Virus record (IMG/VR): IMGVR_UViG_3300033153_003499
Location: 1-24,064 of that record
Source: a virus
Reading direction: 5' to 3' (one strand)
Length of the DNA: 24,064 bases
Positions within the stretch are counted from its first letter, which is position 1. The number at the start of each line of letters is the position of its first letter. Both the position numbers and the translations under genes were made by a program. The notes below the pieces were generated by a model that worked only from the letters and a program-made list of their open reading frames with translations, did not search any database and had not been told where the DNA came from. Below, piece by piece: positions 13,500-21,758 of this stretch.

Positions 13500-13961
13500 T
13501 CATTGTATCATATCATTGAATAATTCCAAAGCCCGCTCGCCCACAGCCCAGGGTTCAAGCGCCTGCTCCAGGCTCTTCCCCTTCGCAATACTCGTGGAGA
13601 GCATTATCGCCGCGTATAGCGTGCAATCCGCGAAGTTGTCAGGGTCTAGCCCGGCTGCCCGCACAGCGTTGAAATGTATCGGATGCAATTGTAGTAACCC
13701 CCGCTCGCCCGCATCGCCCACAGCATCAGGGTCAAACGTGCTTTCATATCGCGCGATTGCAAGGAGTAGCTTGTAGTTTGCAGGCTCGCTCAGGTTCGCG
13801 TTGTAGCTGGCGAATACCAGCTCCTTTGCCACCGCCCGCGCGTCCACTTCGGCGTTTATCGAGTGAATGAATTGCTCCGCCAGCAGGATTTTGCCGTTCA
13901 TCACAGGATCGGGCGGTGTTGTGATTGAGAATATCAGTAATGCAAGTAAGAATAACCTCAT
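13500..13961 (-). CDS. Lytic transglycosylase-like endolysin with N-terminal signal
   Basis: 153 residues. The first 15-16 form a hydrophobic segment (RLFLLALLIFSI) that looks like a signal peptide or release-type signal anchor, so the enzyme would act in the periplasm or cell wall. The catalytic core reads LLLAIARYESTFDPDAVG with the expected general-acid Glu at residue 73, then GERGLLQLHP, then the helix YAAIMLSTSIAKGKSLEQALEPWAVG, where the family usually has 'N...A..YL..L....W..A...YN.G'. This matches the SLT/goose-lysozyme-like group, which cleaves peptidoglycan between MurNAc and GlcNAc. The ATG overlaps the methyltransferase stop, with GAGGTGA as ribosome binding site. The most likely role is host lysis; a tail-associated enzyme is less likely from its position. 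Confidence 0.82.
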   Translation of the reverse strand: MRLFLLALLIFSITTPPDPVMNGKILLAEQFIHSINAEVDARAVAKELVFASYNANLSEPANYKLLLAIARYESTFDPDAVGDAGERGLLQLHPIHFNAVRAAGLDPDNFADCTLYAAIMLSTSIAKGKSLEQALEPWAVGERALELFNDMIQ

Positions 13962-15592
13962 TCCGTCACCTCAAACAGTGGTGTGTCGCGGCTTTCCGCT
14001 TCCCATTGCAGCTTCACCGCGTCGTATTCCTTGCCGCGTTGTTTCGCCCACCATTCCTCGCGGGCTACTGCAATCGCGTGGTATTCCGGCTCCTTCTCGA
14101 TACCGATAGCCTCACGCCCAAGCCAGCGGGCGGCGGCGCAAGTAGTGCCCGAACCGCATAGCGGGTCGAGTATGATTTGCCCCTCGCGGGTAACAAGCTC
14201 AATCAGCCAGCGCATCAGGCGGATGGGCTTAATAGTTGGATGCGGATTGCGGGCTTCGGCTTCGTAATGATAATCCGGCTGTGTGTGAGGGCGTGCCCCG
14301 TTGTTACCAAAGTTTGAACCTTTGATAATCGCGTGCCTTCTGTCCAGCCCCGCTTCCCGTTCCCACCGTGTAGCCTTCGCCGTGTATTTGAAGCGGGGAA
14401 AGAAGCGGGATGCGCCCGCGTCCGGTTCGTCTATCACGTCAGTAGTCTCATACCCAGTGGGCTTACCCTTGTTGTCGAATACCCGTGCGCCGTCCGTGCG
14501 GTTGCGAACAAAGCCGCCCTTCTCAACGCCACTCTGCTCGTCCACCATCGCCGCAGCATACTCGTCCAGCAGCAGGTTCGGGGGGAAGCGACCATCCCCT
14601 GATTGCTCTATGCGTTCGCGTCCAAGCTCATAAAGCCCAGCGGGTGAACTGCCAGTAGCGCCACGTGACCAGCTATCCCCCGTCTCCACTCTGCACGCAT
14701 CAGCATTGAACGCCCCCACGCCGTATTTCAGCACATTGGCGGTAATGCTACCCTCACAGGGCTTGCGGGCGAGCAGGATTGGCTCATATGCGGGCTTCAA
14801 GCCCCCCACCTTCCAGCCATCCCATTCGCGGGCGAGGTCGGTGGCGGGGGCGGTGATGGGTATTTCGACGGAACGTGAGCCGCCGACAGTGTGGCGTCGC
14901 CTCTCCCCTGGGACAGCAATGCCTGCTTTGCCTCGCCCCACCACTTCCCGCTCGGCTTCTTCTAGTGTGGCAAACGGCAAATCCATAACCGCGCACAGCG
15001 TGTTGAACTCATCTACTGTTGGCAGGTTATAACCAAGCTCCCAATTCGCCACACAGCCAGTCAAGCCGCCCGTTTTACTGGGGAAGTGCTTTGCAAGTTC
15101 CTTCTGTGTAATACCGCGCCGTTTGCGTTCTTCACGCAGCCACGCGCCAAACCAGCTAATGTCAACGCCACCGCGCTTATCAATCAGCGCGCCCAAGTCC
15201 TGCGCTTTGGGGAAGCCCGCTCCGTAGAGCCAGAGCAAAGTGTTTTTCACCTCAAAGCCCACATCCTCTGCCGCGCATACCAGCCGATGATAGGTGCGCG
15301 TGCCCCCGAAGGCTAGTAGCGCTGCGCCTGGCATCATCACGCGGTAGCACTCGGCGAGCCATTCCATATTCCATTTCTGATAGGGCGAACCGCCTAAGTC
15401 TTTTTCAACGCTTCCCTGCGGAAACTTCTTTGCATCGCCGCCAAACACGTCCCACGCTTTGCCCATCATGCCGAGTGCGTATGGCGGGTCTACTATCACC
15501 GCGTGGACACTGGCAGGCTCTAGCCCGCGCATCACTTCAACACAGTCGCCCAGGTGTATCACGATACGGTTACCCGTCCTCCTGCTGGTCAC
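13958..15592 (-). CDS. DNA methyltransferase (N4-cytosine/N6-adenine, beta-type) with inserted XRE domain
   Basis: 544 residues. The catalytic motif DPPYALG is near residue 35, and the SAM-binding LDPLCGSGTTCAAAR is near residue 490; the order DPPY first, then FxGxG-like, is that of permuted (beta) methyltransferases. The segment around residues 150-210 (WLREERKRRGITQKELAKHF, ending TVDEFNTLCAVMDLPF) is an XRE-type helix-turn-helix inserted between the two halves, so the protein may recognise DNA or repress genes with it. The remainder of the centre is the probable target-recognition region. Such enzymes protect phage DNA from host restriction. The GTG at 15592 overlaps the preceding gene by 23 bases. 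A second GTG (15562), with AGGAGG 15 bases upstream, is the alternative start. Confidence 0.92.
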   Translation of the reverse strand: MTSRRTGNRIVIHLGDCVEVMRGLEPASVHAVIVDPPYALGMMGKAWDVFGGDAKKFPQGSVEKDLGGSPYQKWNMEWLAECYRVMMPGAALLAFGGTRTYHRLVCAAEDVGFEVKNTLLWLYGAGFPKAQDLGALIDKRGGVDISWFGAWLREERKRRGITQKELAKHFPSKTGGLTGCVANWELGYNLPTVDEFNTLCAVMDLPFATLEEAEREVVGRGKAGIAVPGERRRHTVGGSRSVEIPITAPATDLAREWDGWKVGGLKPAYEPILLARKPCEGSITANVLKYGVGAFNADACRVETGDSWSRGATGSSPAGLYELGRERIEQSGDGRFPPNLLLDEYAAAMVDEQSGVEKGGFVRNRTDGARVFDNKGKPTGYETTDVIDEPDAGASRFFPRFKYTAKATRWEREAGLDRRHAIIKGSNFGNNGARPHTQPDYHYEAEARNPHPTIKPIRLMRWLIELVTREGQIILDPLCGSGTTCAAARWLGREAIGIEKEPEYHAIAVAREEWWAKQRGKEYDAVKLQWEAESRDTPLFEVTE

Positions 15593-18652: not shown

Positions 18653-19297
18653 TCATTTTCTGTCCGACGGCAGGACGGATTGATTAGGTAATTCATCCAC
18701 CCAGCGCACGACCCTGAATGGCTCGGCGGCAAGGTTGTTGGGTAGCTCATAGAAACGCCTGTCAAACGCCGCAGGGCTGCGCCAGTGGGGATATTCCCGC
18801 ATTTCCGACTTGTAACACGCAAGGGCGCGTTTTGCCGCCCACACGTGGTCTGCGTGCAGCCTTACCCAGAAGTTAGGCTCAAAGGGATGCCCTTCCAGCG
18901 CGTATGGTATTGGGCGGGTCATCAGCACGCGCGGGCAATCGCGGAAGGCGGTCATCGCAGCACGCGCGGTTATCTGGTGGTCAAGGTTCAGATCGTGCAG
19001 GTAATGGGTTATGAGCAGGTCTAGCTTGTAGTCTTCCAATTCCGTTAAAGCTTCAAGCCAGCGCGTTATATCAAGTAGCGCGATATTATCTAACATTTGG
19101 TCTGTGAAGTGGCAATTTAGCGTAAGGTCATGCACGCCCAATGCCGCTAACGCTTCAGTGAACTCATCGTCAATGCAGCGCCCAGATGTTGCAAAAAATA
19201 CATTGACGTGATGCCCAGCCTCAGCATAGCGCGCAATCGTGCCACCAGCGCCCAGCACTTCATCATCGGGATGCGCGAATACCGCCATTATGTTCAT
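18653..19297 (-). CDS. PIG-L/LmbE family zinc-dependent N-deacetylase
   Basis: 214 residues from the ATG at 19297 (TAAGGAGATACACA before it); the longer open frame upstream is rejected because it lacks such a site. Motif I is AHPDDE at residues 8-13 and motif II is HDLNLDH at 101-107, giving the expected zinc ligands His9, Asp12 and His107. A GGTIARYAEAGHHVNVFFAT segment completes the Rossmann-like core. Family members remove the acetyl group from N-acetylated sugars or related molecules. It is the last gene of a cluster with NeuB and formyltransferase homologues, so its substrate is probably an acetamido sugar. It overlaps the preceding gene by 35 bases. Confidence 0.88.
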   Translation of the reverse strand: MNIMAVFAHPDDEVLGAGGTIARYAEAGHHVNVFFATSGRCIDDEFTEALAALGVHDLTLNCHFTDQMLDNIALLDITRWLEALTELEDYKLDLLITHYLHDLNLDHQITARAAMTAFRDCPRVLMTRPIPYALEGHPFEPNFWVRLHADHVWAAKRALACYKSEMREYPHWRSPAAFDRRFYELPNNLAAEPFRVVRWVDELPNQSVLPSDRK

Positions 19298-19667
19298 TGT
19301 GTATCTCCTTACAGCCAAAGAAATGCTCAATCGCTTTCATGCAATCTGGAAGCCTTTTGAATGCTTTTGTTTCGAGAGTAGTTATTTCGGGGGCATCTAT
19401 ATGAAATTCATTTGCTAGATAATCATGTGCAAGGATTTTGGCTCTATAACCCCGCTTCCGCCCTGTCCATATTTCAATACGGGCAAGAACAATAGTTCGG
19501 CTTAATCCACGCCTTCCTATTTGGCATTCCAGTTGAACCCAACAGTTATCACTCGAAGTATCACCGGGGCCATTGCCAGCCCAAAATAACCAGTTACCAA
19601 AATCATCTTTATAATGCTTCCTGCACCCCCAAATATCATCTAATAATTTATCGCTTGGTTTCATCAT
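19263..19667 (-). CDS. Hypothetical protein between formyltransferase and deacetylase
   Basis: 134 residues, no recognised family. The start is supported by GGGAGG five bases before ATG and by a four-base ATGA overlap with the formyltransferase stop. The first half contains aromatic and Trp-rich stretches (KDDFGNWLFWAGNGPGD, CWVQLECQIG), the middle is basic with a WTGRKRGYRAKILAH segment, and the C-terminal part has a helix around LPDCMKAIEHFFGC. The base composition is more AT-rich than that of its neighbours, and the last 35 bases overlap the deacetylase. It may be a recent insertion in the cassette or a small accessory protein. Confidence 0.68.
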   Translation of the reverse strand: MMKPSDKLLDDIWGCRKHYKDDFGNWLFWAGNGPGDTSSDNCWVQLECQIGRRGLSRTIVLARIEIWTGRKRGYRAKILAHDYLANEFHIDAPEITTLETKAFKRLPDCMKAIEHFFGCKEIHNEHNGGIRASR

Positions 19668-20572
19668 TGCTGCCTCCCAAGTTTATCGCCAGCCTTCATC
19701 CCCCATTTCATTGCCAGCTCATACGCGGGTATCACTTCGCCGTCCTGCGTTTCGCTGGCGGTCAGGAGTATGTCATTCTCGCCCATTATGATTGCGCCAC
19801 CTATTTCATCGAAGGCAAGTATTTCGCCTTCATTGAAATGCGCCAAGTTGTGGTCGCTATTCACTATCTCATCGGCTTTCCATATCCAGAACTTCCTGCC
19901 CTTCCAGTATGTGAATGCGCCCGGATAGGGCTTGGTGAGGGCGCGTATCAAGCGCAGTGGCTGGTCAGTCCAATCAATCTCGCCCATCTCCGGCGTGCGC
20001 TTCTCCCACCATTCGCCGTCGCCTTCCTGTTTGCGGCGGGGCGCTGTGCCTGCCAGTAGCCCGTCTAGATGCTCGTCCAGCAGCGCGATGATAGCCTTCG
20101 TATGCTTCTCATAAAGCGTGCCTGCATCGTCCTTGTAGCCCACGTAGAAGCCCTTAGATGCGATTATGTCGCCACTATCAGCCTTCTCGTCAGCGTAGAA
20201 CATCGTCATTTCCGTGTAGCCCAGATCGTGCAGGATGGTATGCGGGATGGGCGCACGCCCGCGGTAGTCCGGCAGCTTTGCGGCGTGGAAACATACCGTG
20301 CCACGTGGCGGGATTGCCAGCACTTCGGGCGGTATGAGGCTCGACCAGCCGACAACAAGGATAAGGTCGGGTTTGCTGGATTTGATTGCATCCACACTGT
20401 AGGGAATAATCGCGCCGTCTATATTGCAAGGCGGCAGCCTGTAATCGCATATCCCTTTGGCATCATCAGGCGCAAGCGTCGCATATATTACATCCTTGTC
20501 GAAAGCTAATTGCGGCATCGCCAGAATCCGCGTAGCCATTTGCGTTGCCCCGATGAATAGTATGCGGCTCAT
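19664..20572 (-). CDS. Formyltransferase (methionyl-tRNA formyltransferase/sugar N-formyltransferase fold)
   Basis: 302 residues. Residues 1-145 are the formyl_trans_N fold with GTVCFHAAKLPDYRGRAPIP at 91-110 and the loop KADSGDIIAS at 130-139. The expected catalytic His is His96 and the Asp is Asp132. The Asn that normally precedes this His by two residues is Cys94 here. The C-terminal 130 residues resemble the formyl_trans_C region (ALTKPYPGAFTYWKGRKFWIWKADE). The enzyme would transfer formyl from N10-formyl-tetrahydrofolate to an amine; neighbouring sugar enzymes point to an amino sugar rather than Met-tRNA. The ribosome binding site GGAGGTGATGTT is before the ATG, and the start overlaps NeuB's stop. 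Confidence 0.85.
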   Translation of the reverse strand: MSRILFIGATQMATRILAMPQLAFDKDVIYATLAPDDAKGICDYRLPPCNIDGAIIPYSVDAIKSSKPDLILVVGWSSLIPPEVLAIPPRGTVCFHAAKLPDYRGRAPIPHTILHDLGYTEMTMFYADEKADSGDIIASKGFYVGYKDDAGTLYEKHTKAIIALLDEHLDGLLAGTAPRRKQEGDGEWWEKRTPEMGEIDWTDQPLRLIRALTKPYPGAFTYWKGRKFWIWKADEIVNSDHNLAHFNEGEILAFDEIGGAIIMGENDILLTASETQDGEVIPAYELAMKWGMKAGDKLGRQQ

Positions 20573-21306
20573 AACATCACCTCCACTTCCCGTATCCGCT
20601 GCACCATCTCCGTGAACTCAGCCGGATTCAGTGAGCAGGAATAATCAGGATGGTCAGGGTTGCCCGGTTCTAGCCGGAAGTGCTTCTCTATCAGAGTAGC
20701 CCCAAGCGCAACGGCGGCTATGGGCGCGGTTATGCCAACGGTATGGTCGGAATAGCCGACATCGCAAGTCTCTTTGATTTTCTTTATTTCTCCTAATGCG
20801 GCCTCATTCGGCGGCGTTGGATATTGCGATACGCAGTGAAAGAAAGTTAGCCTATCAACCGGAAGTGCGCTATCGGTCATAATTATCACCCTTCCGGGCT
20901 TGACCATGCCAAGAGATATGTATACAGGTTTGCCCTGCTCTATGATATATGTTACCAACTTAGGGTCATCACGCAATGTTCGGCTTGCCACCTTGTGGCG
21001 CTGCACGCCTATATCAGTGAGCAAGTCTACCGCCCATCGGTCAAACGCGGATGCCATAAACTCTATGCCCTTGCTGTAGCAATGGGCGGCGATCTGCCGC
21101 CAGCCGCTTTCGGTGAAGCGGCGCTCTAGGAAAAACGCCGCCAGCTCAGGCGGTTCATCCTTACGCAGGAAGCCCGCATCCCTGTAACACTGAAACTTCA
21201 CAGCATCAGCGCCCGTTTCGGCAGCGGCGTCAATATGGCGCTTGGCAAGCTCAAGTAAGCCGTCGTGCGCCGTTCCTACTTCGGCAATTATGAATGTATT
21301 AGTCAT
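20569..21306 (-). CDS. NeuB-family sialic/nonulosonic acid synthase, barrel domain only
   Basis: 245 residues that align with the TIM-barrel part of NeuB/SpsE: EVGTAHDG at residues 9-16, AVKFQCYR at 35-42, FMASAFDRWAVD at 83-94, FHCVSQYPTP at 156-165, VGYSDHTVGI at 183-192, GATLIEKHF at 202-210, and SLNPAEFTEMV at 225-235. These carry the PEP- and metal-binding residues. Family members condense phosphoenolpyruvate with an N-acetylmannosamine-like sugar to a nine-carbon acid. Usual length is about 340-350 because a C-terminal SAF (antifreeze-like) domain caps the active site of the partner subunit. Here the protein ends just after the barrel, so the SAF domain is absent. It begins within the last bases of the previous gene. 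Confidence 0.85.
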   Translation of the reverse strand: MTNTFIIAEVGTAHDGLLELAKRHIDAAAETGADAVKFQCYRDAGFLRKDEPPELAAFFLERRFTESGWRQIAAHCYSKGIEFMASAFDRWAVDLLTDIGVQRHKVASRTLRDDPKLVTYIIEQGKPVYISLGMVKPGRVIIMTDSALPVDRLTFFHCVSQYPTPPNEAALGEIKKIKETCDVGYSDHTVGITAPIAAVALGATLIEKHFRLEPGNPDHPDYSCSLNPAEFTEMVQRIREVEVML

Positions 21307-21758
21307 CGTTCATCTCCTGTAGGCATCTTCTCCAGCTTGCGCTTGGCGGCTTCTAGCTGCCTTTTGGCGGCGGCTACCTTTTTCTCCTGCTTTTCCCGCG
21401 CTTCACGTATAGCGACCCTATCATAGGGTTTCCCCATCCCCGTGCCGCCACATTCGTCGCAAGCCACTCGTTCGCCCATCCGGTCAAAGTTATTGCCTGA
21501 ACCGTAGCACTTCATACAAAGTTTCCGTCCACACACGGAACACTCCCTTTCCCTGCCCGCGATACCCCGCGAACCCAGAAAACAGAGGTGCATTGCGCCA
21601 CAGACACAGCGCCAGATTTCCACGTGGCGCGTGGAAAGAACCTTGAACTTCACGTTCTGTAGGCTGTCAAAGAGGGCTTCCACTTCGCCAGCGATTTCTT
21701 CCCTTTTGATGGGCTTGTTGTATGAGCCGTCCCAGTATGGCTGTTTTGTTTTAGTCAT
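21303..21758 (-). CDS. Zinc-finger protein with DnaJ-like CxxCxGxG motifs and a coiled-coil tail
   Basis: 151 residues. Four CxxC-type pairs occur between residues 50 and 110: WRCVCGAMHLC, ECSVCGRKLC, CMKCYGSG and CDECGGTGMG. The last two have the C-x-x-C-x-G-x-G pattern of DnaJ zinc domains, with about 16 residues between them. A long charged helix (about 115-145, REAREKQEKKVAAAKRQLEAAKRKLEKM) follows. The motif suggests a zinc-dependent protein-protein or nucleic-acid contact; no J-domain is present. The last residues (GDER) double as the ribosome binding site of the NeuB gene, so translation is coupled. Confidence 0.75.
   Translation of the reverse strand: MTKTKQPYWDGSYNKPIKREEIAGEVEALFDSLQNVKFKVLSTRHVEIWRCVCGAMHLCFLGSRGIAGRERECSVCGRKLCMKCYGSGNNFDRMGERVACDECGGTGMGKPYDRVAIREAREKQEKKVAAAKRQLEAAKRKLEKMPTGDER

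Follow-up and report, generated by a model that had tools for sequence, protein, structure and literature searches.

A small phage operon for the probable synthesis of a sialic-acid-like sugar bearing formyl in place of acetyl

Layout and enzymes of the cassette

The window, i.e. the whole stretch of DNA analysed here, is the linear virus record IMGVR_UViG_3300033153_003499 of 24,064 bases, which encodes phage proteins on its minus strand (major head protein, portal, terminase and a tape-measure-like protein). A small operon lies between positions 18653 and 21306; judging from its gene content, its product is probably a sialic-acid-like sugar, a nonulosonate (NulO), in which formyl takes the place of an acetyl group. 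Along the minus strand the cassette reads NeuB, formyltransferase (FT), an orphan open reading frame (ORF) and PIG-L. Pfam confirms the three enzyme families that a preliminary description had named (NeuB, Formyl_trans_N/C and PIG-L). The features are:

20569..21306, minus strand: NeuB-family synthase, 245 amino acids (aa), first gene of the cassette (Pfam NeuB, E=3.6e-54)
19664..20572, minus strand: ArnA-type FT, 302 aa, with N- and C-terminal domains (Pfam)
19263..19667, minus strand: orphan ORF, 134 aa, between FT and PIG-L, with its own GGAGG and a 4-nt overlap with FT
19305..19310, minus strand: AAGGAG, Shine-Dalgarno-like site of PIG-L (sequence)
18653..19297, minus strand: PIG-L family deacetylase, 214 aa, most likely start ATG at 19297 (Pfam, E=1.2e-18)
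21303..21758, minus strand: upstream ORF, 151 aa, with CxxC pairs and a 4-nt overlap with the NeuB start (sequence)

Overlaps of 4 nt, read from the sequence, join the upstream gene to NeuB, NeuB to FT and FT to the orphan ORF, and a Shine-Dalgarno-like AGGAG or GGAGG stands 5-7 nt before each start codon of the cassette. The earlier view of three adjacent and translationally coupled genes is thus borne out as regards coupling and has to be corrected as regards adjacency, since the 134-aa ORF separates FT from PIG-L. This ORF has good translation signals; it matches nothing in Pfam, NCBIfam, PHROGs, INPHARED phages or viral contigs, and its AlphaFold model (pLDDT 58.7) matches no fold in the PDB. 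The 151-aa upstream ORF, for which Pfam gives no confident family match, is probably co-transcribed with the cassette.

The NeuB protein matches Pfam PF03102 with 184 bits (gathering cut-off 22.1) over profile positions 2-235 of 241 and consists of the TIM barrel only, the ORF ending after the barrel with the ATG of FT overlapping its stop. Its scores against the NCBIfam equivalogs stay below the cut-offs (NeuB_NnaB 204 vs 399.65 bits, PseI 163 vs 340.25 bits), partly because the C-terminal SAF domain is absent, and we therefore claim no specific synthase name. It lies closest to NeuB/LegI-type synthases, with the NeuB of a Pontibacter locus (L124) as best BLAST relative. In the alignment it keeps E9, K37, Q39, K105, S108, Y162, S186, H188, H209 and D221, which correspond, in this order, to E25, K53, Q55, K129, S132, Y186, S213, H215, H236 and D247 of Neisseria meningitidis NeuB, while the positions of T110 and N184 are occupied by Ser. 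Among these residues Lys53, Lys129, Ser132, Ser213, His215 and His236 serve phosphoenolpyruvate and the metal in the meningococcal enzyme. By a tail-length criterion, 34 of 65 viral NeuBs lack the SAF domain, compared with 2 of 35 cellular ones. A dedicated clade of SAF-less phage NeuBs that would include the window protein was considered and not upheld, its position in the tree being unsupported.

The PIG-L protein scores 68.3 bits against PF02585 (cut-off 28.2), with a Pfam match at 18653-19330. Translation most likely starts at ATG 19297 rather than at TTG 19330; AAGGAG lies 7 nt upstream of this ATG, and the resulting 214-aa frame overlaps the orphan ORF by 35 nt. The AHPDDE motif and the distal D-H motif (NLDH; D106, H107) are invariant with relatives. 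As a thiol-pathway deacetylase of the BshB, MshB or Mca type the protein reaches only 28-36 bits, compared with NCBIfam equivalog cut-offs of 182-277.

In the FT (19664-20572) Pfam recognizes Formyl_trans_N (2e-16) and Formyl_trans_C (1.7e-11), and the best PDB match of its AlphaFold model (pLDDT 82) is the ArnA transformylase 5j63 (E=5.9e-26). It shares with the ArnA transformylase domain the fold, the domain order, the folate-site loops RGRAP and DxGDI and, as His96 and Asp132, the equivalents of His104 and Asp140. It differs from ArnA in having Cys94 at the position of the catalytic Asn102, in lacking a UDP-glucuronate oxidase domain and in its PIG-L partner. Active-site retention, whose failure in close homologues the preliminary description had named as one of two refuting results, is mixed: PIG-L, the NeuB barrel and the FT His/Asp pair are intact, whereas the SAF domain of NeuB and the FT Asn are gone.

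Conserved neighbourhoods in phages, bacteria and archaea

An alignment of four phage PIG-Ls was used as query against cellular genomes and viral contigs (80 loci each), and every ORF in the loci obtained was compared with NeuB and FT profiles. PIG-L has both a NeuB and an FT no more than 3 kb away in 23 of the 80 viral loci and likewise in 23 of the 80 cellular ones, and the co-occurrence is concentrated among the closer relatives (top 40 vs bottom 40: 17 vs 6 viral, 19 vs 4 cellular). Here and in the FT-based search described below, co-occurrence is far above chance. Loci with co-occurrence cluster together in a tree of the PIG-L sequences, the window protein standing on a long branch. The tight order NeuB-FT-PIG-L of the window, the search for which had been proposed from the sequence, recurs in 12 viral loci, among which are two pairs of near-duplicates, with gene overlaps of typically 4-35 nt; cellular loci mostly read FT-PIG-L-NeuB. 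Independent acquisition without any conserved neighbourhood, the result that would have spoken against a common function, was looked for and not found, as the cassette recurs in phages and bacteria.

Environmental phage contigs (L137-L140, L144, L147, L151, L165, L168, L175, L184) share the NeuB-FT-PIG-L order with the window, their genes overlapping by 4 to 55 nt. Unlike the window, these closest phage triads have genes for a PseB-like dehydratase, an aminotransferase and a cytidylyltransferase alongside, a full-length NeuB and an FT of another subfamily, and they are not closely related to the window phage. That the marine contigs come from phages received little further proof from PHROGs searches. 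With FT, PIG-L or the orphan ORF as single query proteins, viral scans gave no matches, the scan with an FT alignment (A3) gave no confirmed relative, and in INPHARED each family is present, with no record holding two of them at the sensitivity used. A terminase search for close kin of the window phage returned distant, partial matches only. In six loci (L066, L069, L144, L147, L168, L184) PIG-L stands between two FTs, of which one lacks the Asn and the other has it (NLHISYLP/NLHNSFLP), which would fit formylation of two amino groups.

So that the choice of loci would not depend on PIG-L, we searched 297 Bacteroidota and 300 Bacillota genomes with the window FT as the only query. The FT genes most similar to it overlap a PIG-L gene or directly adjoin one. 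With 1.5 kb flanks and four genomes chosen beforehand left out, PIG-L is present in the locus of 14/14 FTs that carry Gly in place of the Asn but of 0/43 FTs with Asn; NeuB lies within 1.2 kb in five of the 14 PIG-L-coupled Gly-type cases. One FT with Gly at this position by eye (L228) has no PIG-L in its locus. The Pontibacter genome that holds L124 has its highest-scoring FT beside PIG-L (136 bits, the next FT reaching 64). The Asn missing in the window FT is usually missing in PIG-L-coupled FTs, so that the window protein probably still functions like a sugar formyltransferase; we do not place it in the ArnA subfamily. Asn loss as a strict mark of PIG-L coupling was rejected: nine Asn-type FTs, most being second FTs, also lie beside PIG-L in the PIG-L-fetched set, and the Asn-type FTs next to PIG-L in Halobacteriota show that it is no universal mark. 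The latter are six methanogen loci (L284, L286, L287, L289, L290, L294), in which the PIG-L is of the type AHPDDMELEAGGT, a WbqC-like gene precedes the pair and a glycosyltransferase-2-like gene follows it.

In bacteria the same three families, with overlapping genes, occur in pseudaminate or legionaminate loci for flagellin or surface glycans (L051, L052, L057, L073, L099, L124), which, unlike the window, hold complete NulO pathways, usually in the order FT-PIG-L-NeuB, and most of which have a shorter FT (about 230 aa) related to PDB 1zgh. Locus L051 (Oceanospirillaceae) holds a complete pseudaminate set including a PseB-like dehydratase (bits/curated cut-off: PseC 565/423, PseF 329/206, PseG 212/154, PseI 505/340), with overlapping FT-PseI-PIG-L genes and flagellin genes downstream. 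The Pontibacter locus L124 encodes legionaminate enzymes (LegC 553/420, NeuD 209/161, NeuB 491/400, NeuC 500/236) and continues with FT-PIG-L, a nucleotidyltransferase and a CMP-sugar synthetase, its FT being among the best relatives of the window FT. Since both loci have another enzyme for acylation of the 4-amino group, FT and PIG-L look like an added tailoring pair.

The clearest link to a product comes from haloarchaea. The S-layer of Halorubrum sp. PV6 carries 5-N-formyl-legionaminic acid (Zaretsky et al. 2018, PMC6137143), and the cluster reported there comprises, as lengths of reverse-transcription PCR products, legC 1139, legB 1025, legF 722, legG 1163, FT 953 and neuD 629 bp; the listing then skips gene 1052 (HrrPV6_1052) and goes on to legI. 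When the window FT was searched in 394 Halobacteriota genomes, its best match was the FT of a cluster (L308) whose ORFs follow the PV6 order: legC 1140, legB 1026, legF 723, legG 1164, FT 954 and neuD 630 bp. After neuD, NeuB (LegI) lies on the other strand and overlaps PIG-L by one base (L308:8339-10065), and the FT is Asn-less here, too (GMHPAPLP). As L308 matches PV6 gene for gene, with PIG-L beside NeuB, HrrPV6_1052 very probably encodes PIG-L. The N5 of legionaminate derives from the N-acetyl of UDP-N-acetylglucosamine (UDP-GlcNAc), so that both a deacetylase and a formyltransferase are required for a 5-N-formyl product. The window and the PV6-type cluster thus have in common NeuB/LegI, an Asn-less ArnA-type FT and PIG-L; the latter is cellular, with a complete legionaminate pathway and an SAF-bearing NeuB, whereas the window has the three enzymes only, in a phage, with an SAF-less NeuB.

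A possible route to a 5-N-formyl nonulosonate and its alternatives

We consider it most likely, with a probability of roughly 0.58, that the cassette is a phage-borne NulO tailoring unit giving a 5-N-formyl NulO for a change of the host surface. Hereby, NeuB would condense phosphoenolpyruvate with a six-carbon amino sugar to the nine-carbon NulO, PIG-L would strip the UDP-GlcNAc-derived N-acetyl group (N5 of the NulO) before or after the NeuB step, and FT would formylate the freed amine from 10-formyl-tetrahydrofolate to yield a 5-N-formyl NulO of the legionaminic or pseudaminic type. The precursor sugar, activation with cytidine monophosphate (CMP) and transfer would be provided by the host or by phage genes outside the 24-kb fragment. 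The exchange of N-acetyl for N-formyl had already been suggested in the preliminary description; it is now well supported, by inference, from the recurring gene set and from the L308/PV6 cluster with its known product. While the three-gene neighbourhood of PIG-L, Asn-less FT and NeuB is conserved, the N5-formyl product is known for the Halorubrum cluster only.

The likeliest use would be an altered NulO on a host surface glycan or flagellum, resulting in receptor alteration and exclusion of competing phages. Host-surface remodelling has the closest phage precedents: the Acinetobacter prophage genes epaA/epaB turn pseudaminic into 8-epipseudaminic acid, as determined by NMR on the capsule (PMC12053666), and phage O-acetyltransferases act on capsule NulOs (PMC6586298). 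Like the window cassette, epaA/epaB are phage genes altering a host NulO; unlike it, they act by epimerisation and encode other enzymes.

Several observations weigh against this reading. The C-terminal SAF/antifreeze domain with its conserved Arg is absent from the 245-aa NeuB, and in N. meningitidis NeuB this domain supplies Arg314, which is reported to be essential. As aligned, the replacement of Asn102 by Cys94 in FT also counts against it, as do the interruption of FT and PIG-L by the orphan ORF and the distance of the window FT and PIG-L from their relatives (best about 30-40%, on long branches). Moreover, FT/PIG-L pairs without NeuB exist in surface-glycan or other loci (L089, L102, L108, L129), the six methanogen Asn-type FTs adjoin a PIG-L of another type, and L308 is equated with PV6 by the order of its genes and their lengths. 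The fragment being a linear contig, the absence of a CMP-synthetase or glycosyltransferase holds for the fragment only.

The main rival explanation is that the altered NulO is attached to proteins of the virion (capsid, spike or tail) and not to the host surface. The spike protein VP4 of HRPV-1, grown in PV6, bears host-made 5-N-formyl-legionaminic acid, as cited in PMC6137143, which is a precedent for the sugar and not for viral genes, and phage relatives (L008-L020, L032) carry CMP-sugar synthetase, NeuB and LicD between genes that, by similarity only, are capsid- and head-tail-like. As no glycosyltransferase or target can be identified in the window and the closest phage triads sit among sugar genes and not among structural genes, we regard virion decoration as unlikely. 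Another explanation has FT place its formyl group on the 4-amino nitrogen of the hexosamine precursor, the later N7 of the NulO, and PIG-L act elsewhere, without any N5 swap. Sugar formyltransferases of the ArnA, PseJ and VioF type act on 4-amino sugars, the window FT matches ArnA best in both sequence and fold, and a PseG-formyltransferase fusion occurs in two relatives (L057, L099). These two, however, have a second FT by PIG-L besides the fused one, the 4-amino group is covered in L051 (by a PseG/PseH-like acetyltransferase fusion) and in L124 (by NeuD), which nevertheless add FT and PIG-L, and the Halorubrum product is N5-formyl, not N7-formyl, which makes N7 formylation rather unlikely.

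A role of the cassette in modifying a small molecule, or an amino sugar other than a NulO, with NeuB as a KDO-type or unknown aldol synthase, would fit the FT/PIG-L pairs without NeuB and an SAF-less enzyme that may accept another substrate. It appears improbable, given that the window NeuB is nearest to NeuB/LegI-type synthases and that the FT/PIG-L pair recurs in complete NulO pathways. We likewise see little chance that the cassette is decaying host-derived cargo in which a truncated NeuB and an unusual FT no longer form a pathway. The SAF-less NeuB, the Asn-less FT, the inserted ORF and the solitary position within 24 kb would be expected in this case, but no frame is broken, ribosome-binding sites and 4-nt overlaps are present, the PIG-L and NeuB barrel motifs are invariant, SAF-less NeuBs are common in phages, Asn-less FTs are the rule among PIG-L-coupled FTs of bacteria, and the GC content shifts little at the cassette (0.51-0.53 vs 0.53-0.58).

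Beyond the tailoring of a host-surface NulO by this one cassette, we tentatively suggest, at somewhat less than an even chance, that phages spread PIG-L and Asn-less FT as a module for exchanging N-acetyl for N-formyl. An SAF-less NeuB would then ignore the N-acetyl group, host NulOs would be formylated, and the module would represent the missing step of 5-N-formyl-legionaminic acid synthesis. The analysis offers a gene-level proposal for the synthesis of N-formylated NulOs, a step partly open in the one paper that reports both structure and cluster (PMC6137143), where the PIG-L gene goes unmentioned, finds the same module in phages, and marks a class of PIG-L-coupled formyltransferases lacking a residue held to be catalytic. 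If the proposal is true, formylation would join 8-epimerisation (PMC12053666) among phage-made changes of host NulO glycans. The gene pseI is listed among phage-borne metabolic genes in a review (PMC6359870), and formyltransferases are known in flagellin glycosylation islands (PMC5109656, PMC4875605), in which papers they are mentioned without a PIG-L partner. We found no literature linking PIG-L, FT and NeuB, subscription journals being mostly outside the coverage.

Other nonulosonate genes in viral contigs and a methyltransferase in the window

Five viral contigs (L004, L014, L023, L028, L035) have NeuB next to genes for a NeuC-like epimerase and a CMP-NulO synthetase, by appearance a complete route of the sialic-acid type carried by phage contigs. 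In a further set of viral contigs (L007-L020, L022, L027, L032) a cassette of glycosyltransferase-like, CMP-synthetase, short NeuB, HAD, LicD and methyltransferase genes recurs; it sits between major-capsid-like and head-tail-like genes, so assigned by similarity only, and its position hints at virion glycosylation. Elsewhere in the window, at 13958-15592, an N6/N4 DNA methyltransferase carries an HTH_3-like insert inside its catalytic domain.

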